A stretch of 64,000 bases of DNA from Volutella citrinella (taxonomy: Eukaryota; Ascomycota; Sordariomycetes; Hypocreales; Nectriaceae). This document shows positions 33,010-64,000 of the stretch, piece by piece. A model generated the notes under the pieces. That model was not told where the DNA came from. It made no database searches and worked only from the letters and a program-made list of their open reading frames with translations. A program made the translations under genes and the position numbers. Position 1 is the first letter of the stretch. Every line of letters starts with the position of its first letter. The stretch spans positions 744,001 to 808,000 of the forward strand of contig JAWZSP010000005.1 in assembly GCA_034401135.1 (NCBI GenBank), written 5' to 3'.

Positions 33010-34941
33010 CTAGACGCTGCTCACCTCGATTCCCTTGTAACCACCCTTGGCCCAATCCAGAGTCTCTCGCTCGTAGTCATTAGCGCCCTTGCTCCACATG
33101 GTTCCCCGAGCCCGAGCCATCTGCACCTCGAGAGGCACCTCGCGGTCGAGTTCGCCCTCCGCATTGATGTAGCTGGGCGTGCAGCCAGCCGTGGCAGCAA
33201 ACACGGCAGCTCCGCCGGCGATGGTGTTGGCCCAGTCCTCTTCCGCCTGTGCGCTGGGCTCCACGGTGAAGTTATACTTGTATGGAGACGAACTGCTCCT
33301 GGACTTGGACTCGTTACGCCCCTTGGCCATGATGCCCGCGACGTTTTTGGCGGCTAGATCAATGACAAAGGTAAAGTTGGCGGAGCCGGCGGCCTGTACG
33401 AAGCCCGGCCAAAACAAATTGGGGAAGTCGTGACTGGTCACGCCGTGTAGAGTCTTGACACCGGCGGGCGAAGTCCACTTCTTATCTAAATCAATGCTGT
33501 CACGTCCAACTGCTCTGATGTCCACGCGCCCAGAGGGACTGTAAAGGAATGGGCTGCGGTACCCTGTGCTCAGCACGAGGACATCGAGCGGAAACTCCTT
33601 GCCACAGGCGATGACACTTGTCTCGTTAATAAGATTGACACCTTGGCCATCGGTATCAACGAGTTTGACATTGTCTTGGTTGAATGCTTCAAGGTAGTCA
33701 TCGTGGAAGCAGGGGCGCTTACACCACCCGGCATACCAAGGCTTAAGCTTCTCAGCGGTCTCTTTGTTCATAACGACCTCATCAATCCTCTGTCGGATCT
33801 TATCCTGTCGTACCGCGTCGATCCTGTGCAGCATCTGCTTATATTCACCGAGTTGCTCTGGCGACACTGTCCTGTTGGATCCAGCAATGGCGCTATGGGA
33901 GGGCATGGAAGTCCAGCCATCTGAGACTAGATCGACCTTGGGCTTTGTCGGGGCGTTAGCTAGGAACTCGTTCCAGTTGCGCTGCCTGTCGTACTGCCAT
34001 CCAGGGTGACTGGCAGTATCAGTGTTCCACTCTGCCTCGTCAGTGGCTCTGTTGTCTCGTCGATCAACGGATGACGGAGTTCTCTGGAAGACGTAAAGCT
34101 CCTTGGCCCACTTGGCGAGCTGTGGGACAACCTGAATTGCAGTTGCACCTGTGCCGATGATACCAACTCGCTTATCAGTAAGGTTGGTCAGGGTCGGATC
34201 AAGCGGAGTACCACCGGTGATGTCGTAATCCCATCGGGCGGTGTGGAAGATGGGATTTTTGAACGTCTCGATGCCGTCGATCAATGCGATTTGCGGCACA
34301 ACCGAGATGCCAGTGGTAAGCATCACAAATCGAGACTTGACTTTCAGGGGGGCAATATCGACACCGTTCGCCTGATAGAAGGCGTTTGTGGTCCACTCCT
34401 TATTGCTCTCGTCCCAAGCCAGGTTGTCGACCTTGATATGAAACAGGGCCCGATCCTGGACTTTGAGATGGGACGCAATTCTCTCAGCGTGACGTCGAAG
34501 CTCATCTCCAGAGCCATACTTTGTCTTGGGCATGTAGCCCGTTTCCTCGAGCAAGGGCATGTAAATGTAGCTTTCAACATCACACATGAGTCCTGGATAT
34601 CTGTTCCAGTACCAAGTGCCTCCAAAGCCGCCGGCATTGTCGACAAAGAGGAAGTCGTCGGGGCTGAAGCCGGCCTGTATCAGCCGAGCTGCGAAAAGCA
34701 GACCGCTGTGTCCCGCGCCAACAATCAGGATCTCGCAACGCTTCTCACTGGGTCGCTGTGTAGAAGCGCCATTTGAAGCATCATCCTTGGTCCAGGGATC
34801 AGCGAGGAACTGCTTGAATTTGTCCAGCTTGTACAGATCAGTGAACTGTGACAAGCCATCGTCGCGAAGTCGCTTGGTACGCTCCAGGCTGTACTTCTCC
34901 TGGAGCTGAGCCACCTTTTCATCCAATTTGTCAACCATCAT
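33010..34941 (-). CDS. Baeyer-Villiger monooxygenase 1
   Basis: One exon, 643 residues, ATG 34941. It has two Rossmann motifs, the FAD one at residues 75-80 (GAGHSG) and the NADPH one near 263-268 (GTGATA). Between them is the BVMO fingerprint at 227-237, FKNPIFHTARW, which fits FxGxxxHxxxW except that the Gly is Asn. GGFGGTWYWNRYPG and the downstream LSTGYRSPF motif are also typical of class B flavoproteins. Such enzymes insert oxygen next to a carbonyl, turning ketones into esters or lactones with NADPH and O2. It lies at the left edge of the catabolic cluster. Its upstream region holds eight CCTCGG/CCGAGG boxes within about 300 bp, the densest array in the window, which suggests strong control by the in-cluster regulator. 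No targeting signal is seen (ends EVSSV). Confidence 0.9.
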   Translation of the reverse strand: MMVDKLDEKVAQLQEKYSLERTKRLRDDGLSQFTDLYKLDKFKQFLADPWTKDDASNGASTQRPSEKRCEILIVGAGHSGLLFAARLIQAGFSPDDFLFVDNAGGFGGTWYWNRYPGLMCDVESYIYMPLLEETGYMPKTKYGSGDELRRHAERIASHLKVQDRALFHIKVDNLAWDESNKEWTTNAFYQANGVDIAPLKVKSRFVMLTTGISVVPQIALIDGIETFKNPIFHTARWDYDITGGTPLDPTLTNLTDKRVGIIGTGATAIQVVPQLAKWAKELYVFQRTPSSVDRRDNRATDEAEWNTDTASHPGWQYDRQRNWNEFLANAPTKPKVDLVSDGWTSMPSHSAIAGSNRTVSPEQLGEYKQMLHRIDAVRQDKIRQRIDEVVMNKETAEKLKPWYAGWCKRPCFHDDYLEAFNQDNVKLVDTDGQGVNLINETSVIACGKEFPLDVLVLSTGYRSPFLYSPSGRVDIRAVGRDSIDLDKKWTSPAGVKTLHGVTSHDFPNLFWPGFVQAAGSANFTFVIDLAAKNVAGIMAKGRNESKSRSSSSPYKYNFTVEPSAQAEEDWANTIAGGAAVFAATAGCTPSYINAEGELDREVPLEVQMARARGTMWSKGANDYERETLDWAKGGYKGIEVSSV

Positions 34942-35085
34942 GATTGGTCCTGCTTGTAAACAAGAAGCAAGGGAGGGCTATTTGGTTTGGATTTGAGTTT
35001 TTTGCTTGTCTAGGCTCGGAACGCTTTGGCGTGAATAGTCTAGATTTATCGTCTGGGACAGCTACTTGCATCAACCAGAAGAGCA

Positions 35086-35389
35086 CCGAGGGTGGGTGTC
35101 CTCGGAGCCAACCTCTTCACTGGCGTGTTGTAGAACGTCAACGCATACGATAGACAGGAACAGCGCCGAGGAGCCGTTAGACTACAAGACTGGCGGCTCC
35201 TCGGATTCACTTTACTGCAAGTAGTTATGAGGCATCTGATGTGCTCTGAGGGCACAGCACCGAGGACCAGTGAGCAGGCGGCTGTGCATGGCCTCGGGGA
35301 CCAATTGCTACTTGGGTTTATCGTCGAGGCGCCTTGGTGTTGCGTAACAAGAATCCTCGGAAGTTCGATTTGGGCTTAGTGTGCCTCGG
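35086..35389. promoter_or_regulatory. Eight CCTCGG/CCGAGG boxes upstream of BVMO 1
   Basis: Boxes start at 35086, 35100, 35166, 35199, 35260, 35292, 35355 and 35384. Two of them form an exact 11-bp inverted repeat, CCGAGGAGCCG and CGGCTCCTCGG, with 22 bp between. CCTCGG is the reported core site of Aspergillus FarA/FarB, relatives of Fusarium CTF1. The array sits 145-450 bp before the BVMO ATG. The rest of the 34942-35809 interval shows nothing else recognisable. Confidence 0.7.
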
Positions 35390-35809
35390 TTACTATCACA
35401 GCCGGGCCAGTCACACTGTCCCTCGCGGCTAGCTGGTCAGGCGGATATACACCACCAGACCGTGGTGGCTCTCCTAGGAACCCCGCTCTAGCATTTGATG
35501 CCACGCTATCGAAGTGTGTGCAACAAATGGCTTACAATGGCCCTGAATCTACGACTTAGTGTAGCTTGGGTCAGCTGCTATTCCCGGACAATTCCCATAC
35601 GAGATTTCGGTCTTTGACTCAAGTATCAAATCTCCGAGACATAAGCTCAAAGTTGTCTGACTGAATAGCCCAAATGAATGCTGCAAATCACCGAAGCTGA
35701 AACGTAAGACTATAGAAACATAATATAATGACATATCACAGCTATCTCGATTCAGCTAGAAGACATTCCAATGGCCCTTGACTCTGGAAGGCCCAAATAC
35801 ACAGTGACC

Positions 35810-37906
35810 TCACAAGGCTGCACCCTTAGGCCGAGGCTGACGACCAGCCGCAGTGCTTGGAGGTCCCAGAGGTTTGTTTCCATACGGAGTCACATCGATT
35901 CCCAGCTCCTCAGCCTTGATACGAAGCGCTAGACAACCCGAATGGAATCTACTAAACGCAAACTGGTGGAACATTGCCCACAAGCCCTTCTGTGGAAGCG
36001 GGCAGTAATTGATCAGAGACTCACCCTCAGGGCCAATGAAGAACGCATTGCCCTTCTCCCATCTTTCATTGCACTTCTTGGCCATCTTGTCTCCCATGAC
36101 GGCCTGGATTGCGCTCTTTGTGTCCATGTAGCCCGTGGCGAAGATGACCACGTCTGCTTGTTGGGAGGTGCCGTCCTTGTACACAATACCGTCCTTGGTG
36201 AAATGATCGATTTCGGAATGCCTCAATTTAATGGTCCCGTCTGCAATAAGCTTACTACAGCCAGTGTCCCAGTAGAAGCCGCCCTGGTCAAAATGGAACA
36301 TGGAGTATGCACCTCCGCCGTGGTAGCCGTCGTGAAGGCGGAAGCCGACCTTTCGGAGAGAACTCAAGAGCTCCGCGTCAATTTCTCGCGTCTTACGCTG
36401 CCCAATCTGCAGGACCTCGTATTCCACAGGAAGCGGCTGTTTCAAAAAGTTGGACTGGTCGGCAATATCTATCGGGACGCCTCCTCGTCGGTTCGTCAGT
36501 TCTCTGGCCTTGAACAGATGGCGAACACTCTTTTCGACAGACATGATGTGTGTTGCGCCACGTTGGATCATAGTAACCTCGCAGCCATTTTGGACAAGCT
36601 CGTGGGAGATGTCGTGTCCGGAAGTGGCGGCGCCAACGATTACACATTTCTTGCCTGCCCAGTTGGGCCCGGTTCGGTGTCGAGAGGAGTGGACGATCAA
36701 GCCTCCATTAGCCTCAAAGTCGCCCATGCCACTGATCTTGGGGACATTGGGCAGAGTTCCAGAGATACCAGTCGCGATCATGATGTGGCGGGGGCGCAGC
36801 ACGCGCTTACTGCCATCTTCTCTTGTCACGGAAACAGTCCACCTGCCCAAATCTTCGTCGTATGTTGCGTTTTCGCCGTCAATCTGTGACTTGGTCCAGA
36901 AATTGAGGTTCATAATACCTGCGTAATGCTGCATAAAGCTTGAAAGTTGCTGGGTTGGCATGAAGATAGGGAACCAGAGGGGGAAAGGCACGCAAGGCAT
37001 GTGATTTGTGAATGTAGGCCCATGGAGGGACAAGCTCTCATATCGACTTCCCCAGCTGTATCCCGCCCGATCCTCCTTCTCAATGATGAGATGCGGGATG
37101 CCAAGTGTCTTGAAACGAGCCGCCAACGACAGGCCTGTATGGCCAGCGCCAATAATCACCACTGTAGGCTCCGTTCCTTGCAGGTACTCCTGTTCATCCT
37201 GTCTTTGCTGGCGATATGTCCGGGTCTTGCCCAAAGGATCGTGAACCTTGGCATGCTGGTATCGGATTTTATCACCACTTTCAGCGTCCCAGCCTTGCAC
37301 TGTGTCGATGGCAGTGCCGATGGTGTATATCTTCCAGCTGTTGACATCTGCTAGCTCCACGGCTGAGCCAGTAGTCGCAGCAAATGGGCTCAGGCGAATT
37401 ACACCAACACCAGTTCCGTGTGCAAAGTCGTACTGGACGTGGATAAGAATGAAAGCCAGGTCATCTCCGATACTTTCCAGTGAGGGAGTGGCTGCGGGGT
37501 TAAGACGGATATTCTGAATGCCAGTCTTTGGGAGTCGCTCTTGCAGCATGGGTCGGATTTCTTCATGTGTATGGAGAGTGCGAATATCCCACGTAAGCAG
37601 TTCGACATCTTTCCAGTAGCCATCAGATCCAATGTGACTGAGGATTGCATCAATATCTTGCTCCTCCACGGCCTTTGCAAATGTCTTGATGAAAGCGTCG
37701 GTAATCACGCCGACATCGACGGAAGCATAATCTGGAGTGAAGCCCAGCTGGCCGCTCGTTGGAAGCTTGGCGCGTTTCACATGGCCATAGTACCCCAGAG
37801 TTTCGGACAGAGGGACACCGGCCCAGCCGATTTGCTCTGGATTGGGGGGCCGGATGCATTCATCAGTCCAGTCGAGAGTGTCGTTCTGCGTGCTGTTGTG
37901 CGTCAT
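35810..37906 (-). CDS. Flavin-containing monooxygenase with N-terminal extension
   Basis: The frame is open from 37951 but the first ATG is at 37906, giving 698 residues. Residues 60-205 form an alpha+beta region resembling a SnoaL/NTF2-like fold (FIKTFAKAVEEQDID, LTWDIRTLHTHEEI, VNSWKIYTIGTAID). The monooxygenase part follows: FAD motif GAGHTG near 253-258, acidic IIEKEDRAGYSWGSRY, YESLSLHGP, an ATGISG turn, NADPH motif GAATSG and a late FATGY motif. This layout is shared with a fungal/bacterial group annotated as flavin-containing or YUCCA-like monooxygenases; no BVMO fingerprint is present. It is transcribed with BVMO 1 in the same direction and shares its promoter region with the MFS gene. 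Likely an NADPH-dependent oxygenation of a pathway intermediate; the substrate is unknown. Confidence 0.85.
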   Translation of the reverse strand: MTHNSTQNDTLDWTDECIRPPNPEQIGWAGVPLSETLGYYGHVKRAKLPTSGQLGFTPDYASVDVGVITDAFIKTFAKAVEEQDIDAILSHIGSDGYWKDVELLTWDIRTLHTHEEIRPMLQERLPKTGIQNIRLNPAATPSLESIGDDLAFILIHVQYDFAHGTGVGVIRLSPFAATTGSAVELADVNSWKIYTIGTAIDTVQGWDAESGDKIRYQHAKVHDPLGKTRTYRQQRQDEQEYLQGTEPTVVIIGAGHTGLSLAARFKTLGIPHLIIEKEDRAGYSWGSRYESLSLHGPTFTNHMPCVPFPLWFPIFMPTQQLSSFMQHYAGIMNLNFWTKSQIDGENATYDEDLGRWTVSVTREDGSKRVLRPRHIMIATGISGTLPNVPKISGMGDFEANGGLIVHSSRHRTGPNWAGKKCVIVGAATSGHDISHELVQNGCEVTMIQRGATHIMSVEKSVRHLFKARELTNRRGGVPIDIADQSNFLKQPLPVEYEVLQIGQRKTREIDAELLSSLRKVGFRLHDGYHGGGAYSMFHFDQGGFYWDTGCSKLIADGTIKLRHSEIDHFTKDGIVYKDGTSQQADVVIFATGYMDTKSAIQAVMGDKMAKKCNERWEKGNAFFIGPEGESLINYCPLPQKGLWAMFHQFAFSRFHSGCLALRIKAEELGIDVTPYGNKPLGPPSTAAGRQPRPKGAAL

Positions 37907-38417: not shown

Positions 38418-39959
38418 ATGGACCCAAGCAAGCCCTCGTTGAGTGAGGCCAAACAGGAAGTGGCTCGACAAGAAGTTCTCAATGACAAGATGGGGGGCAA
38501 TCAAGCAGCCACAGAGGGCCAGCATCTGGAACATGGCGTTGAAGAGTCCTGGGCGGGTGCTAGTGAGGCAGAAGTGACAGCGACGATCAGGAAGGTTGAC
38601 CTGATCATCGTGCCCATCATGATGATCTTGCTAGCATTCTGCTACATCGATCGTGCGAATATGGGCCTTGCCGCCGTTGCTGGAATGGCAAAAGAGCTGA
38701 AATTCAGGGGCGATCAATATTCCATCTCGCTGCTTGTGTACTTCCCCGCCTACATTCTATGCGCCCTTCCCAGCAATTACGTCCTCCACCGCACTTCGGT
38801 CCGCTACTGGCTCACATTCTTGTCGCTCTCATTTGGGCTATTCACTTTGGCCATGGGCTTGGTTAAGAGCTATGCAGCGCTTGTGGTCATGCGGTTCTTC
38901 CTTGGTGTCTGCGAGGCTGGGTGAGCCTCCTCCCATGAACATTTTTCGTTGGTAATAGCACTAACCATGATGAATATCAGTGCGTACCCGACTATTGTAT
39001 TTGTGCTCAGTTGTTGGTACCCACGTTATTACTTTGGAAAGCGAATGGCCGTGCTCGGCACCGGTGCCTGCTTGATCGCCTCTCTGGCTGGCGTGCTCGC
39101 ATATGCCTTCTCGAGAATACATACCGCTCATTACGCCGGCTGGAGATGGATCTTCATTTTGGAGGGCCTCATCACTGTTGTCATCGCTATCGGAGCTTTC
39201 TTTCTGCTCGAGGAATATCCTGAGAAATCCCGGTTTCTTACACCCAAGCAGCAGAACATTGCGGTTCGCCTCATTGCAGAAGATCGAGAAGAAAATGTCG
39301 ACACAAAGCTTACCGTGAGGGTGGTTTTCCAAAATCTAGGCGACTGGAAACTTTGGGCCTTTGGCTTCATGTACATGCTCTGTGTCACAACAACGTACGG
39401 CATTGTCTACTTTATGCCAATGATTCTCGAGGGCATGGGCTTCAAAGGAGCTCTAAGCCAGCTTTTGACAACACCACCATACTTTTGGGCTTTTATTCTG
39501 GCTGCACTGTTGACTTGGACATCTGATAGGATTCGAAATAGGTCCATGTTTATCATTTTCTTCTCACTCAACGTCATCATGGGCATCGCATTAACCCGCT
39601 GGGGCCCCAACACCATTGCTCAGTACATGGGATTGTTCTTCACACTGGGAGGCGCGCTGTCAAACGGACCCATGATCATCATATTTGCTCAAAATAATGC
39701 TCCTACGCGGGTGAAGCGGAGCGTAAGCTCAGGTTTGCAGATGAGTCTTGGTGCCGTTGGAGGAATCATCGGATCTACCGTTTTCCGCGCCAAGGACGCC
39801 CCGACCTACACTCCCGGCATCATTGTTCTGCTGTGCGCTACAGCGACAATGATTCTAATCGACTTATGTCTCGTATGGCATTTCAGAACGCAGAATAGGC
39901 TCCAGAAGGAGGAAGGGTTGGTGCTAGAGGGTCAACACGGCTTCCTGTACACGCCTTAG
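38418..39959 (+). CDS. MFS transporter, Dal5/anion:cation symporter type
   Basis: Exons 38418-38920 and 38981-39959 (60-bp intron, GTGAGC...ATCAG) encode 493 residues. The intron falls between CEAG and AYPTIV, a frequent position in this family. About twelve membrane spans can be counted, starting with IIVPIMMILLAFCYIDRANMG, whose DRANMG signature is characteristic of the allantoate/nicotinate/tartrate carriers. RFFLGVCEAGAYPT, GWRWIFILEGL and the long central loop with YPEKSRFLTPKQQ also fit. Members move organic anions and small carboxylic acids with protons across the plasma membrane. In this cluster it is a good candidate for uptake of the substrate or a carboxylated intermediate. Confidence 0.9.
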
Positions 39960-40593: not shown

Positions 40594-41559
40594 ATGTCTC
40601 TTGCATATGATTCCGACTACGCCAAGGCCATCGAGCCGCTGCGGCCGTTGCTCGCTAAGCGCGCCAAGCTCAACCTTGACCAGATCTCGTCGACCCGACA
40701 GGGTCGCGAATCGGTGATTGCTACATCGTTCGACAGGCTGCCACCATCCCCAGAGGTGGTCCAGAGTCTGACCTACGCAACAGCCCGTGATGGGTACCGC
40801 ATCCCCGTCCATATATTCACACACCAAAATGCCCGTGCGTACACCGGCCCTGCTATCGTGCATTATCACGGCGGAGGCATGATCCTCGGTTCGGGCAAGC
40901 TTCAGGCGAGAGGGTTGGCGAAATACGTGACAGACACATCTATCCCTCTCTTCAGTGTGGATTACCGCCTCGCGCCAGAACATAGCGGTACGACATTGGT
41001 CGAGGACTGCTATGACGCCCTAGTCTGGCTGAACAAAAATTCTGATCAGTATAATATTGATCCGGCAAGAATCTGCCTTGTTGGAGAGAGTGCGGGAGCA
41101 GGTCTGGCTGCTGGTGTGGCATTGATGGCTCGGGACCTGGATCTGCAACCTCCGTTGGCCAAGCAAGTCCTGTACTACCCAATGATTGACGATAGGAACA
41201 ATGTAAAGAACGAAACTTTGGCGCCGTTTGCATTCTGGTCGACAGACGACAATAACACGGTTTGGAGGGCCGTGTTGGGCGACAAAGCTGGCCAGGCTGA
41301 TGCCGATGTGTCCCCATACGTTGCCCCGGCGCGGGCTACCACCCTGGCAGGGCTTCCGGCAACCTACATTGATACAGGGTCGCTCGACATATTTGGTCCT
41401 GAGTCCATTACTTACGCTACACGATTACTATCCGAAAATGTTCCTGTCGAGTTTCATCTGTACCCGGGATTGCCACACGCGTTTGAAGTGACGGCACCGA
41501 ACATCCCGGCTTCGGAAAAGGCTTACGCCAACAGACTGAAAGCTTTGCTAGATGTTTGA
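40594..41559 (+). CDS. Alpha/beta hydrolase 1 (HSL family)
   Basis: The first ATG in frame is at 40594 and gives 321 residues in one exon. It has the oxyanion HGGG at 92-95 and the nucleophile in GESAG with Ser166. The acid is Asp265 in GSLDIFG and the catalytic His is His295 in LPHAFE. VDYRLAPEH between the motifs is the family's signature. Hormone-sensitive-lipase-type enzymes split short esters and some lactones. Sitting between a carrier and a BVMO, it is well placed to open the ester or lactone made by a BVMO. A second member of the same family stands at 63197. No signal peptide is seen, so it should be intracellular. Confidence 0.9.
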   Translation: MSLAYDSDYAKAIEPLRPLLAKRAKLNLDQISSTRQGRESVIATSFDRLPPSPEVVQSLTYATARDGYRIPVHIFTHQNARAYTGPAIVHYHGGGMILGSGKLQARGLAKYVTDTSIPLFSVDYRLAPEHSGTTLVEDCYDALVWLNKNSDQYNIDPARICLVGESAGAGLAAGVALMARDLDLQPPLAKQVLYYPMIDDRNNVKNETLAPFAFWSTDDNNTVWRAVLGDKAGQADADVSPYVAPARATTLAGLPATYIDTGSLDIFGPESITYATRLLSENVPVEFHLYPGLPHAFEVTAPNIPASEKAYANRLKALLDV

Positions 41560-51760: not shown

Positions 51761-52749
51761 TCAAGTAGCAGAGTCAATCGTGACCGGCACTGAAAATCCG
51801 CCTTCCACGTCGAGAAGCGAGCCCGTCATGTATGACGATTCATCCGACAGCAGGAATGCAACCACTTTGCCGATCTCCTCCGGCTCCGAGATGCGTTTAA
51901 GATGGGACTTGTTCGCGCTCGGCTTGATGTCTGTGCCGTCAAAATAATTGTTTGTAAGTGGAGTGTTGACGACTCCGCTGTTTTTGCACACGTAGGTCAG
52001 CCTTTTGCCAGATGATGGATTTCGTCTCGAATCTCGACTCACGGCGCAATCGCATTGACTCGGATACCCTTTGGTCCGTACTCATATGCGGCGGTCCTTG
52101 TGATTCCCAGAACGGCATGCTTGCTGGCACCATAAGCTACCATATATGGAGTGGCCGAAACGGCAGCCATGGAGGCAATATTGACGATTGAGCCACCGCT
52201 GGGTAGACGAGGTAGCTGTGCACGCAGCGCCTTGAATCTGTCCAAGAAATGAGCCTGTCAGCAACAGGATCCAGGAGACATATGAGCCGACCAGAATAGT
52301 ATACATACACTCCGGTTGCATTAATCGCCATGCCGCTCTCCCACTCCTTATCGGAAGTCTCTCCAATGAGTGGTCCAAGGATAGCTACACCAGCAACGTT
52401 GGCAGCGCCGTCAAGCTTGCCCAGCTCACGAACGGCCGTTTCAATCCAGTTGTTGACATCGTCTGTTTTCGTAACGTCCAGGTAAACTGTAATCAACTTC
52501 TGATCGTCGGAGACGGCCAGGCCCTTGATCTCAGCGGCGGCCTTATCGAGGGCGTCTTTCCGAATGTCGCCAAGAGCCAGAGAAGCGCCGCGACTGTAGA
52601 GAATCTTGGCCGTAGCAAGACCAATACCGGATGCCGCACCTGCAGTAGCAAGTCAGACCTGGTAAGAGCATTGAAGATGCTGCTGTGCCGCTAGGCGTGG
52701 CTCTAAACGTACCCGACACGGCGAATACTTTGCCAGTAAAGGTTGCCAT
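51761..52749 (-). CDS. Short-chain dehydrogenase SDR 2, four exons
   Basis: Exons 52749-52713, 52639-52309, 52237-52043 and 51977-51761 give 259 residues. Introns of 73, 71 and 65 bp have GT...AG ends and matching phases; the second was placed so that INATGV continues with [11 protein letters not shown]. The cofactor loop GGAASGIG follows VSG at residues 12-20, LGDIR ends strand 2 with an Asp (NAD preference), NVAGV stands for NNAG, and the catalytic Ser (IVNIAS) and YGASK are present, as is APGVVNTPL. The end ([11 protein letters not shown]) lacks a PTS1. It shares a divergent promoter with the P450, so the pair may act in sequence: hydroxylation, then oxidation to a ketone. Confidence 0.88.
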
Positions 52750-53430: not shown

Positions 53431-55173
53431 ATGCTCGAACAGCTCACCACCGTCCCGGTGTGGAAGGCATCCTTGCTGGTACTATCCGTTTCCGTAAGTC
53501 TGATAACATCTGCAACGTTGCAAGCCGAGATTAGGCTTGTTGGAGCCGCAATTGACCCGTACGTGTGTAGACGGTAGGCTACCTCATTGGCAGCGTCATC
53601 TACAACCTATTCTTCCACCCTCTCCGCAAGTATCCGGGGCCAAAGCTGTGGGCCGCCTCTCGTTGGCCCTGGAATTTTATGTGGCTATCTGGTACTGGAC
53701 ACAAAACAGTCCTCGAGCTGCAGAAGAAGTACGGGGATGTGATTAGAATCTCCCCCAACGAGCTGGTCTATGGATATCCAGAGGCTTGGGAAGATATCAT
53801 GGGCCATCGCAAGCGAGGACAGGCCGAAAATGGCAAGGACCCGTCATTCTGGATCGAGAGCGATACATACACGCTCGTCGGATCTCCACGTGAGCGACAT
53901 CAGCGTCTACGAAAGGCCCTATCCAATGCCTTCTCGGCCAAGTCAATGATGGAGCAGCAGCCCATCTTTCAAGAACATGTGAACTTGTTGATCCGCAGAC
54001 TGAAAGAGGCCGTTGAGAAAGACGAGTCTCAGGACATCACGGCATGGTTTAACTGGACAGCCTTTGACATGATTGGCGATTTGTGCTTTGGCGAGTCGTT
54101 TGGATGCCTGCACGAGCGTGCCTATCACCCCTGGGTGAAGCTCATCTTCGAGAACATCAAGGGCATGGCTCTCAAGATCGTACTGATCGGCATTCCATTC
54201 TCTCAAACAGTTGCAAATATGGTCATGCCCGCCGAGATGGCAAGGAAGATCAAGGCACACCACGAGTTTGTTGAGGCCAAGGTGGCCAAGCGCATGGAGT
54301 ATGGCGTGCCACGGCCTGATTTCATGGAATCGATGATCCAGGCCCGTCACAAGTCTGTAAGTATGATGTGTTCACACCTACTTCTGAAGCGACAATTAAC
54401 CTTGAGCAGTTAATGTCCCATCGGGAGATGATCGCAGTTGCCCACAATCTCATTGTCGGTGGCTCGGAAACTACTGGGACTGTTTTGGCCGGCACCACGT
54501 ACCTGCTTGCCAAGAACCCGCGCGTGATGGCCAGGCTTGGTGAAGAGCTGCGAAACACTTTCCATAATGATGATGAGATTACTTTGCTCAGCGTACAGAA
54601 GCTTGACTACATGCTGGCCGTCTTTGACGAAGCTCTGCGTATCTATCCCCCGGTTCCTTCTGCTATTCCTCGCATTACGCCTCCCACTGGAGCAACGATT
54701 CGCGGAGAGTTCATTCCCCCAAAAGTAGGTGTCAAAAATGGCTTGTTCCTTTAAAGGTGGCCAAGACGCTAATACTTTGATAGACTACCCTCTCGATTTG
54801 GTCGTGGCCAATGTGTCACAACTCGGCTTTCTTCAAGGATCCTGAGGAATTCGTTCCGGAGCGTTGGCTCGGCGATCCAAAGTATGAGAGCGACATCAGG
54901 GAAGCTTCGCAACCATTCTCTGTTGGACCCCGCAACTGCATTGGCAAGAAGTAAGCACATTTCCACCTAAACATCTACACATGTGCGATCCGCCCTGTTA
55001 ATAGCCCCAGTCTTGCCTATGCAGAGATGCGTCTCATTCTGGCCAAGCTCGCGTGGAACTTTGACTTCAAGATCCACCCGAAGAGCGAGAATTGGATCGG
55101 TGATAACTCGCTGTTCTTCCTTTGGGTCAAGCCAGACCTTTATCTTCGCATGACACCAAAAGTTAACGAGTGA
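53431..55173 (+). CDS. Cytochrome P450 monooxygenase, five exons
   Basis: Exons 53431-53493, 53571-54356, 54410-54724, 54784-54950 and 55005-55173 give 499 residues; all four introns (77, 53, 59, 54 bp) keep phase. Residues 3-35 form the N-terminal membrane anchor, followed by the hinge HPLRKYPGPKLW. The I-helix motif is GGSETT near 300-305, ExxR is Glu357-Arg360 in FDEALRIYPP, and the heme loop is FSVGPRNCIG with Cys440. All are intact. It resembles the fungal isotrichodermin-15-hydroxylase/benzoate-hydroxylase-like group (CYP65-type), but family naming needs a search. It should hydroxylate the substrate at the ER. The acceptor at 54409 could also be 54406, adding one Gln. A dead relative lies at 32341-32772. 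Confidence 0.92.
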
Positions 55174-55572
55174 TGGATCATGGCTTAGGTTCCAGAGTTT
55201 GACGATGAGGGGGGATTTTGTTTTTGGCAGATGAAGGGATCTGAATTTGACATGCCGGATGGTGTAGCTGTATGCGCTTCTGATGAATTCAATACTGATG
55301 TTCAAGCTTAATCACAGGTCAGCACAAGGCCACACACTTGGAAATTGGGCGAATTTCAACCTCACATTAAGAACGACAAGTAATCTCGTCCAGCATTAGA
55401 GCATGTACACTGGCGGGTTAACAGGCTCGGTTGGTTTGGCATCCGCTGCCGAGGATTCATATCTCATTGACGCAATTTGTAAAGCTACACATATGCCGTA
55501 TAGGTCGGAAAGTATCTCATTTATCTCAGTGCCATCAGCAAGTATCTGCGCAGTTTCAATCCTCCGTTGAAT
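55174..55572. other. Convergent intergenic region
   Basis: Shared 3' flank of the P450 and SDR 3. One CCGAGG box at 55449. Nothing else recognised. Confidence 0.4.
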
Positions 55573-56453
55573 CTACAAACCCCGAGTCCATCCTCCATCA
55601 ACCACGACATTTTGACCGGTTATCTGAGATGTTAGATTCGATTCAAAAGTAATGATAAATATGTACTAACATAGCTTGCACGCTCCGAAGCGAGGAAAAC
55701 GACTTGAGCAGCCACCTCTTCCGGGTTGCCCGGCCGCCTCACTGATATCACGGGTTGCGGCTCCGGCTGAGAGGCGATCAAATCATTGCCTTCGCTTTCT
55801 ATCTTCTCACTAACACCGGTATCAATCAGACCAATAGCAATGGTGTTGAATGTGATACCGTAGGACGCGAACTCGTTTGAGAGAGATCTCATCAGTCCGA
55901 CGGCGGCTCTACTCAATCCTCAGTCAATGGAACGTTGCGGATTCAGAACCAGAACGACTTACAGTCGGAAGGTATTGCCCAAGACGATGTGATGCCATCG
56001 ATGTGGCTCCAGGGTGCAGACGCTGCCCAGGTTAATAAACCGCCCCCATTTCTTTTCCTTCCACGCTGGAAGGACGGCTTTGGCGAGATGAACCACACTC
56101 AGAACGCATTGATCTGAGCTGGTTCGGAAGTCATCTGCGCTGGCTTGTTCAAATCCAAATTTGATCAAAGACCTAACATTGCACACAACGACATCTGGCA
56201 CCGAGCCAAACACTTTCTCGGTCTCCAGAACGGCAGCCTTCACCTCGTCTTCTTTGGTCATGTCTGCGGAAATATAGCTCGACTTGCCTCCAAGGTCTTG
56301 GAGTTCTTTGACTGTATCTTGAAGCGGCCCAACGCTCCTGGCGACGATCATGACAGATGCGCCTTCGGTTGCGAATTCTCGAGCTATCGCTTTGCCAATG
56401 CCGCTAGAGCCACCAGACACGAGAACCACTTTGTTCTCGAGACCGAGTTTCAT
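55573..56453 (-). CDS. Divergent SDR 3 lacking the YxxxK active site
   Basis: Exons 56453-55963, 55908-55671 and 55623-55573 encode 259 residues; introns of 54 and 47 bp restore phase, and the last 16-codon exon (ITGQNVVVDGGW) completes the usual SDR C-terminus. The cofactor loop SGGSSGIG is intact at residues 14-21 and VARS follows strand 2, suggesting NADP. Where classical SDRs have Y-x-x-x-K, this protein reads LGNTFRLAAVG: Tyr and Lys are both missing and an Arg stands nearby. A bacterial FabG-like subgroup shows a similar SNxxR arrangement, so this may be a real subfamily and not decay. It may not be a normal ketoreductase. It shares a CCTCGG-bearing promoter with the YciI-like gene. Confidence 0.82.
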
Positions 56454-56675: not shown

Positions 56676-56819
56676 AGCCATCACCAAATGTGTTTGTTAA
56701 TTATTATGTTCTTGACCACACTCCAACGAGATAATCCAGCTTCTTATCATCGCTAGCCACTACAACTAGCTATTTTTCTCTCATCAGCTAGCAGAGACAT
56801 CGCCACAAGTACTCTCTCC

Positions 56820-57155
56820 ATGTCTGCAAAGACCTTTCCTACCGAGTGGCTTGTCCAAGTGCCACTGAATCCCGGATCCCTCGAACGTCGTTTAGCCCTC
56901 CGAAAGCAACATGTGGACGAGGCCATGCCGAAAATCAACGCAGGTATCATCACTCTCGCTGGAGGGATTCTGTCCGAGCCTACTCCCGATGGCGATAATA
57001 AGGGCATGACTATCGTCATCTTCACTGTGAACGTCGACACTGAGGCTGAGGCAAGGAAAATCATGGAGGACGATATATATACCAAGGAGAACATCTGGGA
57101 TACGAACAAGGCGCAGATCTTCCCATGGAAGACTGGGATCAGGCTGGCCAAGTAG
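56820..57155 (+). CDS. YciI-like small protein (dimeric alpha/beta barrel)
   Basis: A single exon of 111 residues. EWLVQVPLNPGSLERRLALRKQHVDEAMP gives the first strand and helix with the conserved His of YciI-related proteins. The following KINAGIITLAGGIL, TIVIFTVNVDTEAEARKIMEDD and IWDTNKAQIFPWKTG complete the ferredoxin-like fold. Family members act as small-molecule-binding or dehalogenase-like enzymes and are often found in aromatic and lactone catabolic operons (compare muconolactone isomerase, same fold). In this cluster it could isomerise or bind an intermediate. No targeting signal. The size is normal for the family. Confidence 0.8.
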   Translation: MSAKTFPTEWLVQVPLNPGSLERRLALRKQHVDEAMPKINAGIITLAGGILSEPTPDGDNKGMTIVIFTVNVDTEAEARKIMEDDIYTKENIWDTNKAQIFPWKTGIRLAK

Positions 57156-57562: not shown

Positions 57563-59016
57563 TCACAGATTCGCATTAGCTCGAACCCTACGAAGCGTGT
57601 CATCCAACGCAAAGTCGTTCCTATTGGCCTTGCTTCGAACCCTATCGGCGTCCTCGATTGAAATGCTTCGTGCCTCGACGGCAGGGTTGTAGCCGAGCCA
57701 GCTTGACCGCGCAATGTCCGCATCGCTGACCTTCTGGTTTACCGGGCTGCCATCCGCACGCTTGTAGATATTGATGACGACGGCTCCTCCAAGGCCCAAG
57801 TTGTGCTGTAAGGCGACCGATGCATTCTCTACCAGGCGGTTGTTGGCCCAGCCTCGCAGCTGCCATGTCAGCTCGGCACACTGGGCGAGGCCGGTAGCGC
57901 CAATGGGGTGGCCCTTGGAAATCAATCCTCCGGATGGGTTGACTACCATCCGGCCTCCATACGTGATATCACCCTTTCGAACCATCTCATGTGCCTTGCC
58001 GTGTTCGGCAAACTCAAGAGCGTCTAATAGGATCAGTTCGTTGGTCGAGAAGCAGTCATGAAGCTCGCAGACGTTGACATGGGCAGGGGTGATGCCAGCT
58101 TCTTTCATAGCTGCACGAGCCGCCCGTTGTGTCATATCATATCCGATCAGCTCAATCGCGCTTGTTTTGAATGCCTCTGGAGAATCCGTCTTGAACGCTT
58201 GTCCAGCCATCAGGATCGCCTGGCCCTTGAGGTGAGGGCGGGCGTCTAGGAACTTCTGCGACACAATGACAGCCGCAGCGGCGCCATCACTTGTCGGGCT
58301 GCACTGCAGTTTGGTCAAGGGAGCGAAAATGGTGGGCGACTTCTCAATTTCCTCGAGTGTATAAGCTTGGCGGAACTGTGCGTAGGGGTTTCGCTGCGAG
58401 TGTTCATGCGAGACACGGCCAATCTCAGCAAAGTCTCGGGCGGTCGCTCCGTACCTAGTTAGATGCTATTAGACCAGCTCTCGATCCCGATTGAGTCAAT
58501 GATGGGGTATGTTTACTTTTCAATGTACTCGCGGCCAGCGTTGCCAAAGTACTGGGCCGTCAAGGGAGCCTTGGCATCAAGGCCGACGAGTTGCTTCATC
58601 TTGGCAGCAAACCGACCGCTGGAGCTGGGTCTGTCATCCCAAACACTCTTGAGGCTTCCTGGCTTCATCTTTTCGACACCAACAACGAGAACGCAGTCTG
58701 CATTTCCACTTCGCACGAGTGTGCGCGCCAGATAGAGCCCGACGGAACCTGTGGCGCACGCATTGGCCGTATTGACAATGGGGATGCTCGTCATGCCGAA
58801 CTGATAGAAGACTCGCTGGCCAGATGTAGAGTCACCGTACGCAAAGCATGCAACTCCGTGTTCCACATCGTCGTAGTTGATCTGTGCATCCAGCATCGCC
58901 TTGACACCGGCCTCGAATCCCATATCGGGATACTCGCGCAGCCCTCGCGGCTTGATGAACTTGGTCATGCCCACGCCAAGCACGTAGGCTTGGTTTCCTG
59001 GTTGGGATTGCCCCAT
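57563..59016 (-). CDS. SCPx-type thiolase
   Basis: Exons 59016-58517 and 58454-57563 (62-bp intron, GTAAAC...ACTAG) encode 463 residues. The acyl-accepting Cys87 lies in NTANACATGS; HDCFSTNE carries the first catalytic His, and GGLISKGHPIGATG the second. PTSDGAAAAVIVS in the middle is also typical of the SCP2/SCPx thiolase branch, which handles branched-chain and steroid side-chain 3-ketoacyl-CoAs. The length (about 460) corresponds to the thiolase without the SCP2 lipid-transfer domain. The protein ends RANANL; ANL is a weak PTS1-like tripeptide, so peroxisomal import is possible but not certain. Two CCTCGG boxes precede it. It would carry out the last chain-shortening step. Confidence 0.9.
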
Positions 59017-59587: not shown

Positions 59588-60959
59588 CTAGAGCTTAGAC
59601 CGTGACGCCTCTTCGTTACTCTGACTCTGAACCATCTTCCACGCGGTATCCAAGAACTGCCTGGACTTTTGATAGAACAGATGGCTAAAGTCACTGCTAG
59701 CTTGGCCGCTAATGCTCCTGGCCTGAATGCCATGGGCTATCGCACCTCCGCGGATGTAGCCGAAGAGTGTTGCAACCTGCCAGTCCTTACCCCCTCCGTC
59801 TTGGCGAAGATCAAATCCCACTTTCTCGGCATAGCGGTCAAGCAGCTCCTCAGGTTCCGGCAGCCCGTACGCAGCTCTGCGTTCAGGCTCATACGGGGAC
59901 TCGGCAGCTTTTGATGATGGCTTGCCGAATCTAGGGGCGCCGCTGACAAAGGGACTGATGAAGAACACTACGTCCAGCAGAGGATGCCCAATGGTTGAGA
60001 GCTCCCAATCGAGAATGGCGATGACTCTCGGTTCTTTAGGGTGTAGCATCTAGTGAGTTGATCTGAGTATATGTGTCTTCAAACGTATCAGCTTATTCTA
60101 CTTACCAGGTTGTCAAATTTGAAGTCGCCGTGCACAATCGAGTAACGTTCGCCCGGGAGGTTTTTTCTAACGTGGTCGACGATCTCGTCATACTTCTCGT
60201 GGGCTCGTCCAAGAGCCTGTCCGGTTTTCTTGTCTCTCACAGCTGCTTGCTGAGACTCGATTTTGCTCAGTGTGTTGCACTGACGTTCGTAGAATCCCGT
60301 CTTCTTGCCATAGCCATTCAACCCAATTGAATCAGGATCGAGGGAGTGAAGCCAGGCAAGGGTTTCCGCCGCAGAAAACCATCTGTTTAGCTATTTATTA
60401 GTAGACATAAGTGAGAAATAGCGCAGTCGGTCTTACACTTTTCTTCTGTCTGAAGGGCTCAGGTCTGGCATATCGTGGTCTGTTAATATTCTGCCATGGA
60501 CAAATTCCATAAGCTACACCACACATTAGTACTTGCTGGCAAGGCTGTCAATGGTTCTTACGTAGAAGGGCGTTCCAATGACCGATGAATCCGTACAAAA
60601 TGTATAAACCTTGGGGACTGGGAATCCATCTACAGATCCGAGTGCCTGGAGCACACGAAATTCTCGATCGATCTGGTGCGCAGTGGGACTAATGGATTTC
60701 CCCGGAGGCTTCTTCCTCAGGATCCATCTGGTTTTGCTATCATGGCAATTTCAGCAAGCGTTCCTCTGCGTAAATATTTTTATTTCTTGACAAGATACTT
60801 CACTTACGCTGAATCGTCAAGAAAATAGGTCGGATTACTCTGTCCGTACCCAATCTTCGAGGCTACGACTGGCAGCTGCAGATCGGGGACTTTTCCCGAC
60901 TGCACAAGCCATTCGCCGAGCGCCTTGTTGTCGATATCATGCACCGATGCCGTACCCAT
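59588..60959 (-). CDS. APH-fold kinase resembling the ACAD10/11 N-terminal half, PTS1 SKL
   Basis: Exons 60959-60808, 60736-60562, 60513-60437, 60382-60106 and 60049-59588 give 380 residues; four introns (71, 48, 54, 56 bp) agree in phase. An N-terminal [11 protein letters not shown] strand pair, [10 protein letters not shown] (ATP-binding Lys region), [13 protein letters not shown] and VPVPKVY-like segments are exactly those of the phosphotransferase part of ACAD10/ACAD11. The catalytic loop is HGDFKFDNL and the metal Asp lies in [11 protein letters not shown]. It ends SRSKL, a canonical peroxisomal signal. Human ACAD11 and bacterial LvaA phosphorylate the 4-hydroxyl of 4-hydroxyacyl-CoAs. 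Here the kinase is its own gene, head-to-head with the acyl-CoA dehydrogenase that would be its fusion partner. Confidence 0.9.
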
Positions 60960-61222
60960 GTTCAGTTCAGACTCGATGCAAGGGAAATTGCCGGGGATGA
61001 CGTCCGATCTGAGGCGATGGCACTCAATCTTGGTGGATTTCTTGCCTCGAAACCACAGACCAAGTTAGTTTCCACGGCGCGAAAGAGCCAGAAATCTCAA
61101 TTTATCGGGAGCAGGGGACGTTTCGTGGCGCTGCAGGCACTCATTCGCTCTGGATTCAATCGGATCGTAGTGCCTTGTATGTAGTGGTTGAGCTGCACCT
61201 GCACTCGTCATCAGCTTCGGTG

Positions 61223-61235
61223 CCGAGGCCCTCGG
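61223..61235. promoter_or_regulatory. Perfect CCGAGG-C-CCTCGG palindrome between kinase and dehydrogenase
   Basis: Positions 61223-61235 read CCGAGGCCCTCGG, two inverted boxes with a single base between them, near the middle of the 437-bp divergent promoter (60960-61396). Nothing else recognised in the interval. Confidence 0.7.
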
Positions 61236-61396
61236 AAACGTCCCCTGCCTTACCACTACCGCAAATCATACCTAGTCCACCCATTCTTTGAGCAGGGCTA
61301 CATTGATTTGTGGACAAAATCGCATGTATACTCCATACTGTTGTCTTTCTACGCTCAGCTTATCGACTGATTGGACTTCAACGCTACACAGTCACG

Positions 61397-62752
61397 ATGA
61401 ACTTCGAACTCCCTCCCGATCTACAAGACTACTTATCGCGGCTTGATAAGTTCATCAACGACAAGATCCTGCCGTTACAGAACAAAGATGATAACCAGCG
61501 CTTCTTCGATCACCGCCGCGAGGCTTCACGGACCCAGTGGGATAACCAAGGATTGCCAGCCGAGGACTGGGAGAGATTGCTGAAGCAGGCCAAGGACCTG
61601 TCAGACGAAGCTGGCTTCTACCGCTTCGCCGCTCCTCAAGAATATGGCGGCTCAGGGAGCAAGTCTCTAAACTTGTACATGTGCGCGACTCGATACTTTC
61701 TCACGTCGCATCCTGTGTATGGCGGTGGAGTCAGCCTTGCCAATGATCTGCAAAATGAGCACAGCGTTGTGGGAAATAATCCGACCACTATTTTGCTACA
61801 CCACTACGGCTCCGAGGAGCAGAAGAAGGTCTTCATTCCTGCTAACCTCCGTGGTGACATGAAGTTCACCTTCGGGTTGACCGAGATTGATCATGGCTCC
61901 GATGCCACACATATGGACACCAGGGCTAGGGCTATCACTCTCCCATCAGGCGAGCCTGGGTACGAGATCAATGGCAACAAAAAGTGGCAGACGGGCATGC
62001 ATCATGCCAACTACTGCGTCATATTTGCCAGAACTTCAGGACAAGATGGCGATGCAATGGGTATCACCGCGTTCCTGGTGCCTGTTGAAACTCCTGGTCT
62101 GAGTGTTGTGTCCTACGAATGGACCCTCAATATGCCAACCGACCACGCCACTATCAAGCTTGAGAATGTCCGCGTTCCCGCCTCTGCCATATTGGGACCA
62201 CCTACCAACGGCCTTGCCATTGCACAAACATTTACACACGAGAATCGCCTCCGTCAGGCCGCAGCTAGCTGTGGCGCGGCTCGCTTCTGCGTTGATCGAA
62301 GTGTCGAGTATGCCAATAAGCGAAAGCCCTTCGGCAAGCCATTGTCAGCAAACCAAGCCATACAATGGCCTTTGGTTGAGATTGCAACCCAGGAAGAGAT
62401 GCTAAGGCTCTTGATTCTCCGAACGGCCACCGAGATGGATCAAGTACGGGACGAAGCGGTAGCGGCCGGGAAGTATCCTTGGATCGCCATTGAGAAGGAG
62501 CTTGGCCATAAGATTGGAATGTGCAACTACTACGCCAACAGGCTTGCCTGTGAGGCAGCTGATCGTGCGATTCAGATACACGGTGGAGATGGATACTCAA
62601 GGCATTATCCATTCGAGCACATGTGGCGACACTTCCGACGATATCGGATTACTGAGGGCAGCGAGGAGGTTCAGATCCGCAAGGTTGCTGCGTATCTCTT
62701 TGGCTACAAGTCGACGGGAAAGACGACTGGCAAGGCGGACGCAAAGCTTTAG
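61397..62752 (+). CDS. Acyl-CoA dehydrogenase, ACAD10/11-like, PTS1 AKL
   Basis: One exon, 451 residues from ATG 61397 (frame open further upstream; this ATG begins the family homology MNFELPPDLQDYLSRLDKFI). Motifs are FAAPQEYGGSGS, KFTFGLTEIDHGSDATHMDT (FAD/substrate loop), NGNKKWQTGMHHANYC, ETPGLSVVSYEWTL, a TFTHENRLRQAA segment and the C-terminal IHGGDGYSRHYPFEHMWRHFRRYRITEGSEEVQIRKVA. These place it with the ACAD10/ACAD11/LvaC group and not with ordinary straight-chain dehydrogenases. It ends ADAKL, a type-1 peroxisomal signal matching the SKL of its divergent neighbour. In the ACAD10/11 reaction the phosphorylated 4-hydroxyacyl-CoA loses phosphate to give an enoyl-CoA that enters beta-oxidation. 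Confidence 0.92.
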   Translation: MNFELPPDLQDYLSRLDKFINDKILPLQNKDDNQRFFDHRREASRTQWDNQGLPAEDWERLLKQAKDLSDEAGFYRFAAPQEYGGSGSKSLNLYMCATRYFLTSHPVYGGGVSLANDLQNEHSVVGNNPTTILLHHYGSEEQKKVFIPANLRGDMKFTFGLTEIDHGSDATHMDTRARAITLPSGEPGYEINGNKKWQTGMHHANYCVIFARTSGQDGDAMGITAFLVPVETPGLSVVSYEWTLNMPTDHATIKLENVRVPASAILGPPTNGLAIAQTFTHENRLRQAAASCGAARFCVDRSVEYANKRKPFGKPLSANQAIQWPLVEIATQEEMLRLLILRTATEMDQVRDEAVAAGKYPWIAIEKELGHKIGMCNYYANRLACEAADRAIQIHGGDGYSRHYPFEHMWRHFRRYRITEGSEEVQIRKVAAYLFGYKSTGKTTGKADAKL

Positions 62753-63067
62753 AACTACAGACATGAAGCTTGAGTGGAAGCATTAGAATGGAAGTAAATG
62801 TATATTTAGTAGGCGGTAGGTTTCAAAATACTAGTTTACGCATTCGATTCCGGTACATTTTAGTCGCGGCCAACTTGGGGACCGTGGTGTGATGACATCG
62901 TAACAACGAAGACGGCCAAGCTCAAATGTTGGCCCGATGCTACCTTACGTACATTTGACCCTTTTCTCATTAACTTCCATTGGGATGGGCTAGGAACTAT
63001 GGGCTTTCTGGGTCGTATGTACTCTGCCGGGGCGGCTACTTCGCCGAGAAGAATGCCGGCGATGCTA

Positions 63068-63073
63068 CCTCGG
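63068..63073. promoter_or_regulatory. CCTCGG box upstream of hydrolase 2
   Basis: A single box, 124 bp before the ATG at 63197. The remainder of 62753-63196 is the 3' flank of the dehydrogenase and shows nothing else. Confidence 0.5.
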
Positions 63074-63196
63074 GCAAGAGTCTCGCTCGGGTATGTGTGA
63101 GTACACGCAGTAAGGCCGTTCATTATTTGTCCACAAATACCACGCTTAAGTTGAAGAGATAAACAGCACTAGGCTCCATGGTGCACCGAAGTCACC

Positions 63197-64000
63197 ATGT
63201 CGCTGCATTACGACCCCGAGTGGTACGAAACCACCGGCCCAGCACTCACGTCTCAGGCCGAAGTCCTTCCCATTGGCGATGTGAAGACCCGGCGAGAGAG
63301 ATACGCGGCCTTATTTGTCAATTACGACATTAAGCTTCCAGATGACTTGGAACTCAAGGTGCACAAAGCGCCTGCATCAGACGGCTATAAGGTGTCAATC
63401 TACCACATCTCGAACAAGGGCACCCAGGCGTCAGCCAAGAAGACACCGGCTGTTTTACACATTCACGGAGGAGGTTTTACCTCTGTCAATGCAAAGGATG
63501 TGCTGCCCAGCATCGCTCCATACGTATCCAAGACTGGCATACCAATATTCTCAGTCGACTACCGATGGGCACCCGAGAATCCGTTTCCCATCCCCGTTGA
63601 GGACTGCTGGACTGGGCTTCAATATCTCCAGAGCCATGCAGACGAGTACGATATTAACAAAAGTCGCATAGCCATCATGGGAGAGAGCGCTGGAGGATGT
63701 CTGGCTGCGTCGCTGGCCATGATTGCCCGGGACCGCAAATTCTCACCACCATTAGTGAAGCAAATCCTGATCTACCCCATGTTGGATGATCGGACTGTCT
63801 CGGACTACACAGGCGGTCTAGCAGTTTTCAGTGCGAACGATGTAATCACTGGTTGGTCCGCGTACCTCGGCAAAGCATACGGAACCGACCATGTCTCCCC
63901 AATCGGTGCACCAGCACGAGCTGCAGACGTGACTGGTTTGCCGGAGCTCTATCTGGACGTGGGCCAGCTCGACGTCTTCCTCCATGAAGATATTTCATAC
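63197..64000 (+). CDS. Alpha/beta hydrolase 2 (HSL family), cut by window end
   Basis: The frame from ATG 63197 stays open to the end of the window, 268 codons, so the C-terminus lies outside. HGGG is at residues 90-93, GESAG with Ser164 at 162-166, VDYRWAPENPFP follows the first motif, and Asp259 in GQLDVFLHED is the acid. The catalytic His is not yet reached. It is a relative of hydrolase 1 (similar motif spacing, KQILIYPMLDDR versus KQVLYYPMIDDR), yet clearly diverged. Two BVMOs and two hydrolases in one cluster suggest two oxygen-insertion/ring-opening rounds or two substrates. The cluster probably continues to the right. Confidence 0.88.
   Translation, partial: MSLHYDPEWYETTGPALTSQAEVLPIGDVKTRRERYAALFVNYDIKLPDDLELKVHKAPASDGYKVSIYHISNKGTQASAKKTPAVLHIHGGGFTSVNAKDVLPSIAPYVSKTGIPIFSVDYRWAPENPFPIPVEDCWTGLQYLQSHADEYDINKSRIAIMGESAGGCLAASLAMIARDRKFSPPLVKQILIYPMLDDRTVSDYTGGLAVFSANDVITGWSAYLGKAYGTDHVSPIGAPARAADVTGLPELYLDVGQLDVFLHEDISY

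Follow-up and report, generated by a model that had tools for sequence, protein, structure and literature searches.

The nearest described system to the locus reported here is that of the fungus Grosmannia clavigera, for which a terpene-responsive cluster of 30 genes has been described (PMC3680317) and two Baeyer-Villiger monooxygenases (BVMOs) have been implicated in limonene detoxification (PMC8120277). A second related system is the group of acyl-CoA dehydrogenases (ACADs) formed by ACAD10/11 and LvaC, in which R626, H634, R637 and D753 (ACAD11 numbering) are active-site residues not found in conventional ACADs, and alteration of R626, H634 and R637 ablates activity (PMC12440821). The third is the site CCTCGG, by which CTF1α/β and FarA/FarB control cutinase and fatty-acid genes (PMC5068947) and which has been noted for the Aspergillus niger genes foxA, katA and hcsA (PMC10512302). 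The genome of Volutella citrinella (GCA_034401135.1; 45.1 Mb, 26 contigs) exhibits a locus that shares features with each of them. It lies mostly in a stretch of 64,000 nucleotides (the window), corresponding to bases 744001-808000 of the 4.57-Mb contig JAWZSP010000005.1, and probably represents a co-regulated catabolic cluster of 19 genes for the peroxisomal breakdown of a lipophilic methyl-branched (isoprenoid-like) ketone. All coordinates are window positions, those past 64000 continuing the same numbering beyond the window end.

Gene content, peroxisomal tails and promoter element

Genes were called with an intron-aware predictor trained on the long open reading frames (ORFs) of the window and on fungal splice signals, and families were assigned by sequence searches against Pfam, NCBIfam and the PDB. 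The gene models are computational, with parts of four read by hand from the frames: the start of the short-chain dehydrogenase/reductase (SDR) g19, which the predictor had mis-spliced, the missed first exon of the regulator g20, the cut start of the YCII-domain protein g24, and a thioesterase missed altogether. Sixteen genes were recovered from position 33010 to the window end. They are the sixteen adjacent genes listed in an earlier note made from the window sequence, and their families agree with that list except for one ACAD. The 31-kb extent given there has to be enlarged, as the window truncates the cluster: a second ACAD, an MFE-2 and a thioesterase lie directly beyond it. With these three genes the cluster totals 19 genes over ~38 kb, with a tight intergenic spacing of 0.13-1.1 kb.

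The cluster carries a whole predicted β-oxidation set. It consists of a 4CL-like AMP-forming CoA ligase (g18, 44495..46441, + strand), for which the PDB search gave just the general 4CL/luciferase class; two ACADs (g27, 61397..62752, +; e40, 64285-65727, -); an MFE-2 of 896 aa in which a hydratase 2 domain is combined with two SDR domains (e41, 66309-69160, +); an SCP2-type (SCPx) thiolase (g25, 57563..59016, -) matching the type 1 SCP2-thiolase in the PDB (E-value = 3.5e-123); and an acyl-CoA thioesterase (69887-70993, +) matching acyl-CoA thioesterases II and a peroxisomal thioester hydrolase. Another MFE-2 is encoded elsewhere in the genome (C5:3055006-3058087) and is 55-68% identical to e41 exon by exon, which makes e41 a paralogue in its own right.

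Together with an ACAD11-type kinase (g26, 59588..60959, -), these proteins make up a CoA module of seven, six of which exhibit a C-terminal tail resembling the type 1 peroxisomal targeting signal (PTS1; pattern [SAC][KRHN][LM]), against none of the 12 other cluster proteins (Fisher p = 2.6e-4). The tails are AKL in the ligase and in g27, ANL in the thiolase and in e40, SKL in the kinase and SRL in the thioesterase. Since asparagine was admitted to the pattern after the two ANL tails had been noticed, the strict pattern lacking it is also given: 4/7 against 0/12 (p = 0.009). Such tails occur in 4 of 67 other predicted proteins, two of the four being an ACAD (on C9) and a kinase (on C1) that were both fetched as homologues.

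CCGAGG/CCTCGG is the most enriched intergenic hexamer of the cluster (45 occurrences in 12.9 kb, with 8.4 expected from the flanks). It is present in all 12 promoter-holding gaps between 34942 and 66308, bounds that were chosen after the motif was seen, with 38 sites against 5.2 expected (p = 1.6e-20). Two of these gaps hold later-found exons, of g20 and g24, and one of the 38 sites falls inside the g20 exon; when both exons are left out, 37 sites remain (p = 2.6e-21). The densest gap is that between g13 and g14 (34942..35809, 8 sites), and the promoter region shared by g26 and g27 (60960..61396) holds 2. Four further sites stand upstream of the thioesterase. Gaps between converging genes contain 2 sites in 1.36 kb (0.9 expected, p = 0.22), at least one site is found in 16 of the 33 flank gaps, and there is none in the gap to the left of g13 (31603-33009, upstream of the SDR g12). 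The cluster also encodes a regulator of its own, g20 (48620..51213, -), with Zn2Cys6 (Zn_clus) and Fungal_trans domains; its best paralogue in the same genome (51%, on C2) is not identified as a Far protein.

The oxidative genes include two predicted type I BVMOs. One of them, g13 (33010..34941, -), matches the PDB entry 5mq6, its closest solved sequence, over nearly the full length (E-value = 7.5e-179). We take this entry to be PockeMO, a polycyclic ketone monooxygenase. Steroids are oxidised by PockeMO on their A and D rings (PMC7570940). The other, g17 (41947..43923, -), has an N-terminal extension and was assigned from Pfam and PDB matches, the latter being steroid and phenylacetone monooxygenases with a steroid monooxygenase at the top; among the matches listed, several homologues carry the source name 4-hydroxyacetophenone monooxygenase. 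Type I BVMOs are characterized by the fingerprint FxGxxxHxxxW(P/D). The corresponding segments of the translations read FKNPIFHTARWD in g13 and YQGPVFHTAQWR in g17, with the histidine and tryptophan retained and the glycine or phenylalanine altered. A flavin monooxygenase (FMO), g14 (35810..37906, -), again with an N-terminal extension, is closest to the solved sequence 8acs. Membership of the BVMO and FMO families does not set the substrate.

Linkage in other fungi

Homologues of the kinase, g17 and g13 were collected from a set of 5.8 billion proteins, and all 120 rows for the kinase were compared with the first 47 of 120 for g17 and the first 47 of 120 for g13. Rows were matched by serial locus tags or by contigs of equal size, from which location on the same contig is inferred; the tags of Neopestalotiopsis 37M differ by 199. 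Automated counting gave 8/10 for kinase and g17, 14/15 for g17 and g13, and 7/8 for kinase and g13. The final counts were obtained after dropping one hand-picked row (P0303) and adding three same-species pairs that lack serial tags, all on different contigs: Lepidopterella palustris for g17 and g13, and Aspergillus unguis and Fusarium albosuccineum for kinase and g13.

In eight of the ten matched assemblies the kinase and g17 lie on one contig, with serial tags, where present, 2-16 apart: Penicillium lividum, Aspergillus nanangensis, Fusarium nematophilum, F. falciforme, Sporothrix eucalyptigena, Dactylonectria macrodidyma, Phaeoacremonium minimum and one metagenome contig. The two BVMOs share a contig in 13/15, including two Dothideomycetes and Cladophialophora psammophila, and the kinase and g13 do so in 7/10. 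Judged by these predicted homologues, linkage extends over three fungal classes for the two BVMOs and over two for the kinase. The earlier note had named, beforehand, a neighbourhood conserved nowhere as one outcome that would speak against it; a conserved neighbourhood was found, with exceptions. In a quick tree of 107 rows, 10 of the 11 kinases labelled as linked, g26 included, fall in one clade of 33 rows (SH-aLRT 99), and the other two ACAD11-type kinases of the genome fall outside it. A PTS1-like tail is present in 16 of the 32 kinase relatives of this clade and in none of the 47 relatives of either BVMO.

Several of these data weigh against a peroxisomal, co-regulated and conserved unit. 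The kinase and g17 lie on separate contigs in 2/10 assemblies (Thyridium curvatum and C. psammophila), g17 and g13 in 2/15 (Fusarium sp. NRRL 66182 and L. palustris), and the kinase and g13 in 3/10; some contigs in the unlinked cases are short. More distant rows outside the count also place the kinase on a different contig from g17 (Cladophialophora immunda, Lophium mytilinum) or from g13 (Rhizodiscina, two Fonsecaea species). The tail of the MFE-2, TRL, is non-canonical. The CCTCGG site is short and occurs, with 2-5 sites each, in five control promoters of lipid genes as well (one each for the MFE-2 on C5, an ACAD11-type kinase and the paralogous kinase-ACAD pair on C9, and two for ACADs of the true ACAD11 type), and it accordingly marks a regulon of the fatty-acid type and not a substrate. 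Weighing these points, we retain the view that the locus, as predicted, is a genuine catabolic cluster, larger than noted earlier and with linked counterparts in other fungi.

The kinase g26 and the acyl-CoA dehydrogenase g27

The best PDB match of g26, a protein of the APH fold, is the kinase domain of ACAD11 (E-value = 1.5e-61), and the alignment reveals that the catalytic residues of that domain (D220/N225, R86 and R176) are all kept. The earlier assignment of g26 to the LvaA/ACAD11 type of kinase is borne out by these data. Among the kinase homologues listed, fungal proteins of 329-379 aa with the kinase domain alone bear public names such as "Acyl-CoA dehydrogenase family member 11" or "acyl-CoA dehydrogenase IBR3".

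The neighbouring ACAD had likewise been labelled ACAD10/11-like, and this label must be corrected. At the positions of R626, H634, R637 and D753 of mouse ACAD11 (the HCMR region and the catalytic aspartate), g27 exhibits F, Q, A and E. An enzyme of the ACAD10/11-LvaC type is rejected on all four signature residues and on database rank; g27 belongs to a distinct ACAD family. At least two true ACAD11-type ACADs with intact R/H/R/D are found elsewhere in the genome (C7:2525849-2527392 and C4:984425-986064), the former matching the ACAD11 chain with an E-value of 3.1e-123. CCTCGG stands upstream of both, and no kinase is predicted in the surrounding 10-kb pieces.

The genes g26 and g27 form a head-to-head pair. 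Within the same genome, the nearest relative of g27 (67% identical) is found on C9 and is paired in the same arrangement with the gene of an ACAD11-type kinase; this paralogous pair (C9:1608601-1611901) has 2 CCTCGG sites in between. A scan of bacterial genomes revealed 67 close relatives of g27 (51-59% identity; two cut by contig ends). In 34 of these 67 loci a kinase ORF stands no more than 500 bp from the g27-type ACAD; in 2 it is farther away, and in 31, mainly from Hyphomonas, Henriciella and Acidobacteria and including a few short contigs, none was found. For six of the bacterial genomes, with 6-17 APH matches each, the chance of a kinase that near is ~0.5-1.2%. A preliminary conclusion that bacterial ACADs of this type are unlinked to kinases, drawn from 1/68 loci with fungal kinase queries, was overturned by bacterial and profile queries. 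The replacement of the signature residues is consistent throughout g27, its C9 paralogue and the 67 bacterial relatives: F in 69/69, Q in 69/69, S in 68 and A in 1, and E in the 68/68 that are readable. H250, R284, R286 and Q287 are invariant in g27 and its relatives.

These observations lead us to raise, tentatively, the possibility that g27 and its relatives may constitute a second, undescribed class of kinase-partnered ACADs. Together with APH-fold kinases, such enzymes would remove the hydroxyl group of a hydroxyacyl-CoA via phosphorylation, using a glutamate base and a different polar pocket (H250, R284, R286 and Q287) instead of the R/H/R/D set of ACAD10/11 and LvaC. Conservation of the pair would then reach from sphingomonads to filamentous fungi, and in Volutella it would act in a peroxisomal route for an isoprenoid ketone that is encoded by the cluster and under Far control. 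Two points tell against it: the kinase-bearing bacterial loci are mostly from sphingomonads, so that the 34 cases reflect a much smaller number of independent events, and the first search, with fungal kinase queries, missed the bacterial kinases. Beyond the papers cited, we found no description of such a kinase-ACAD pair in the open-licence literature. The pair makes it testable whether a second enzymatic solution to hydroxy-acid metabolism exists besides ACAD10/11.

Two sets of bacterial loci deserve mention. In Novosphingobium kunmingense (L060:8429-11284), an ORF with APH and DUF6285 domains stands immediately upstream of the g27-type ACAD; DUF6285 is presumably the LvaB family. In Bradyrhizobium and Albimonas (L075, L110 and L116), a g17-like BVMO, a CoA ligase, an SDR and a g27-type ACAD occur within ~10 kb and may be bacterial counterparts.

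Proposed pathway and comparison with described systems

From the observed gene content, tails, promoter motif and linkage we infer an order of steps, a substrate class and roles for g20, g26 and g27. After uptake, for which the cluster offers the MFS transporter g15 (38418..39959, +; Pfam), the cytochrome P450 g22 (53431..55173, +; Pfam) and the SDRs would oxidise a lipophilic methyl-branched compound to a ketone; the SDRs are g19 (46915..48003, +; N-terminus re-read by hand), g21 (51761..52749, -; Pfam) and g23 (55396..56453, -; domain search). The BVMOs g13 and g17 and the FMO g14 would then insert oxygen beside the carbonyl, and the resulting ester or lactone would be hydrolysed by g16 (40594..41559, +) and g28 (63197..64000, cut at the window end and continuing to 64150, +), both Abhydrolase_3/HSL-type hydrolases by domain search. 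The ligase g18 would load the acid onto CoA inside the peroxisome. The kinase g26, probably partnered by g27, may phosphorylate the hydroxyl group that is freed when the ring or ester opens, so that the hydroxyacyl-CoA could enter a dedicated β-oxidation by the ACADs g27 and e40, the MFE-2 e41, the SCPx thiolase g25 and the thioesterase. Expression would be tied to fatty-acid catabolism by the CCTCGG (Far/CTF1) sites, probably together with the local regulator g20. The remaining gene, g24 (56820..57155, +), encodes a YCII-domain protein of 111 aa (domain search). SCPx thiolases suit 2-methyl-branched chains, and a methyl-branched ketone, terpenoid or steroid, is the substrate class that best fits the predicted enzymes.

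Narrower readings of the substrate can be weighed on the same data. Breakdown of a steroid or triterpenoid, in which a ketone of the side chain or ring would be cleaved by the BVMOs and the branched chain stripped by the SCPx thiolase, MFE-2 and ACADs, is possible if somewhat doubtful: it agrees with the closeness of g13 to 5mq6, with the steroid monooxygenase heading the matches of g17, and with the joint presence of an SCPx-type thiolase and MFE-2, which in animals are the enzymes of branched-chain and sterol β-oxidation, whereas the substrate class of a BVMO is unreadable from its family and the Pfam results show no conspicuous gene specific to sterols. That the locus is a counterpart of the G. 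clavigera cluster, degrading a monoterpene of the limonene type, is unlikely. BVMOs in duplicate and β-oxidation genes are present in Volutella too, the G. clavigera limonene cluster is said to carry BVMOs and an epoxide hydrolase, and β-oxidation was reportedly proposed for the G. clavigera terpene clusters by Wang in 2014; yet no G. clavigera (CMQ_) name appears among the best 120 homologues listed for g26, g17 or g13, not all rows of which are named, and the domain scans reported no epoxide-hydrolase domain among the cluster proteins. Equivalence is not supported by these lists and scans. Similarly improbable is a pathway for 4-hydroxy acids of the levulinate or γ-lactone type, as proposed in the earlier note with g26 as the LvaA-like and g27 as the LvaC/ACAD11-like enzyme. 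Its kinase and CoA ligase stand, and a CoA ligase with SDRs is also a feature of lvaABCDE (PMC6692424), but g27, along with its C9 paralogue and the 67 bacterial relatives (paralogue and relatives with S for A), lacks the residues of ACAD11 and LvaC, which leaves the scheme incomplete within the cluster. The true ACAD11-type ACADs encoded on C7 and C4 lie elsewhere; they could act in trans, and part of a levulinate-type scheme may survive in this way.

Readings that deny a dedicated catabolic pathway fare less well. That the BVMO and esterase steps merely disarm a plant or environmental toxin, the β-oxidation genes being incidental neighbours, would be in line with the common clustering of fungal detoxification genes (PMC8120277). 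It is quite unlikely, given that the CoA genes and the BVMO genes have a common promoter motif and compact spacing and that the MFE-2 of the cluster is a second copy in the genome. BVMOs, P450s and SDRs are, as a matter of general knowledge, common tailoring enzymes, so that a biosynthetic cluster with its core synthase outside the window, which the earlier note had named as a refuting outcome, was considered as well. We reject it as very improbable: in agreement with the earlier note, which had reported no biosynthetic core, no polyketide synthase, nonribosomal peptide synthetase, terpene-cyclase or prenyltransferase domain was detected in the cluster or in 36 gene models of the flanks (~68 kb on the upstream and 34 kb on the downstream side; flanking proteins scanned mostly by their longest exon, E-value 1e-6), and the cluster holds a complete predicted β-oxidation set, marked by PTS1-like tails and by promoter sites of the Far type. 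A co-regulated peroxisomal unit with a catabolic role, such as the earlier note had proposed, is supported by the tails, the CCTCGG sites, the linkage and the lack of a core synthase domain in the models scanned.

The left edge of the cluster is marked by a P450 relic (32356-32783, -) in three frames with stops, pieces of which are 40-58% identical to g22. Farther left in the window are an FAD-dependent oxidoreductase (DAO; 16860-18275, -) ending in AKL and probably peroxisomal, a short SDR-like piece of 145 aa (23097-23534, -) that spans roughly the final third of the domain and is possibly a gene remnant, and a protein of 1,637 aa (24234-29298, +) with a long Ser/Thr-rich stretch, possibly located at the cell surface, with no Pfam match at an E-value of 1e-6. 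By the right edge, past the window, stands a pair consisting of an M20 peptidase and an MFS carrier (73073-76941), the gap between them being devoid of CCTCGG.

The cluster carries a known fatty-acid regulatory site and its markers are linked in three fungal classes, so that its substrate can be looked for with straightforward induction and deletion experiments; it also holds BVMOs of biocatalytic interest. The earlier note knew of no described fungal cluster with the full set of genes. We found no equivalent, and no description of a fungal catabolic cluster joining BVMOs with a β-oxidation set of its own in the open-licence literature; the statement needs qualification insofar as the G. clavigera system is partly similar. 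That nearest described system is fungal and has two BVMOs, whereas the Volutella unit joins to them an ACAD11-type kinase, an SCPx thiolase, an MFE-2 and a thioesterase and exhibits no epoxide-hydrolase domain. PockeMO is matched by g13 over nearly its full length, and, unlike it, g13 is placed within a catabolic cluster. With lvaABCDE of Pseudomonas putida and with mammalian ACAD10/11 the locus has in common an ACAD11-type kinase, a CoA ligase, an SDR and an ACAD in one locus, and putatively the phosphorylation of a hydroxyacyl-CoA; it differs in that g27 is without all four signature residues of LvaC and ACAD10/11. The peroxisomal CoA-dependent hydroxycinnamate pathway of A. niger resembles it in the CoA ligase, foxA, the dependence on FarA and the CCTCGG sites, and differs in that the accessible part of its description mentions neither a BVMO nor a single cluster (PMC10512302). 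Finally, peroxisomal β-oxidation genes and CCTCGG, here in all 12 promoter gaps, are shared with the Far/CTF1 regulon, with the difference that in Volutella the putative site would mark an entire cluster, including its BVMOs and P450.

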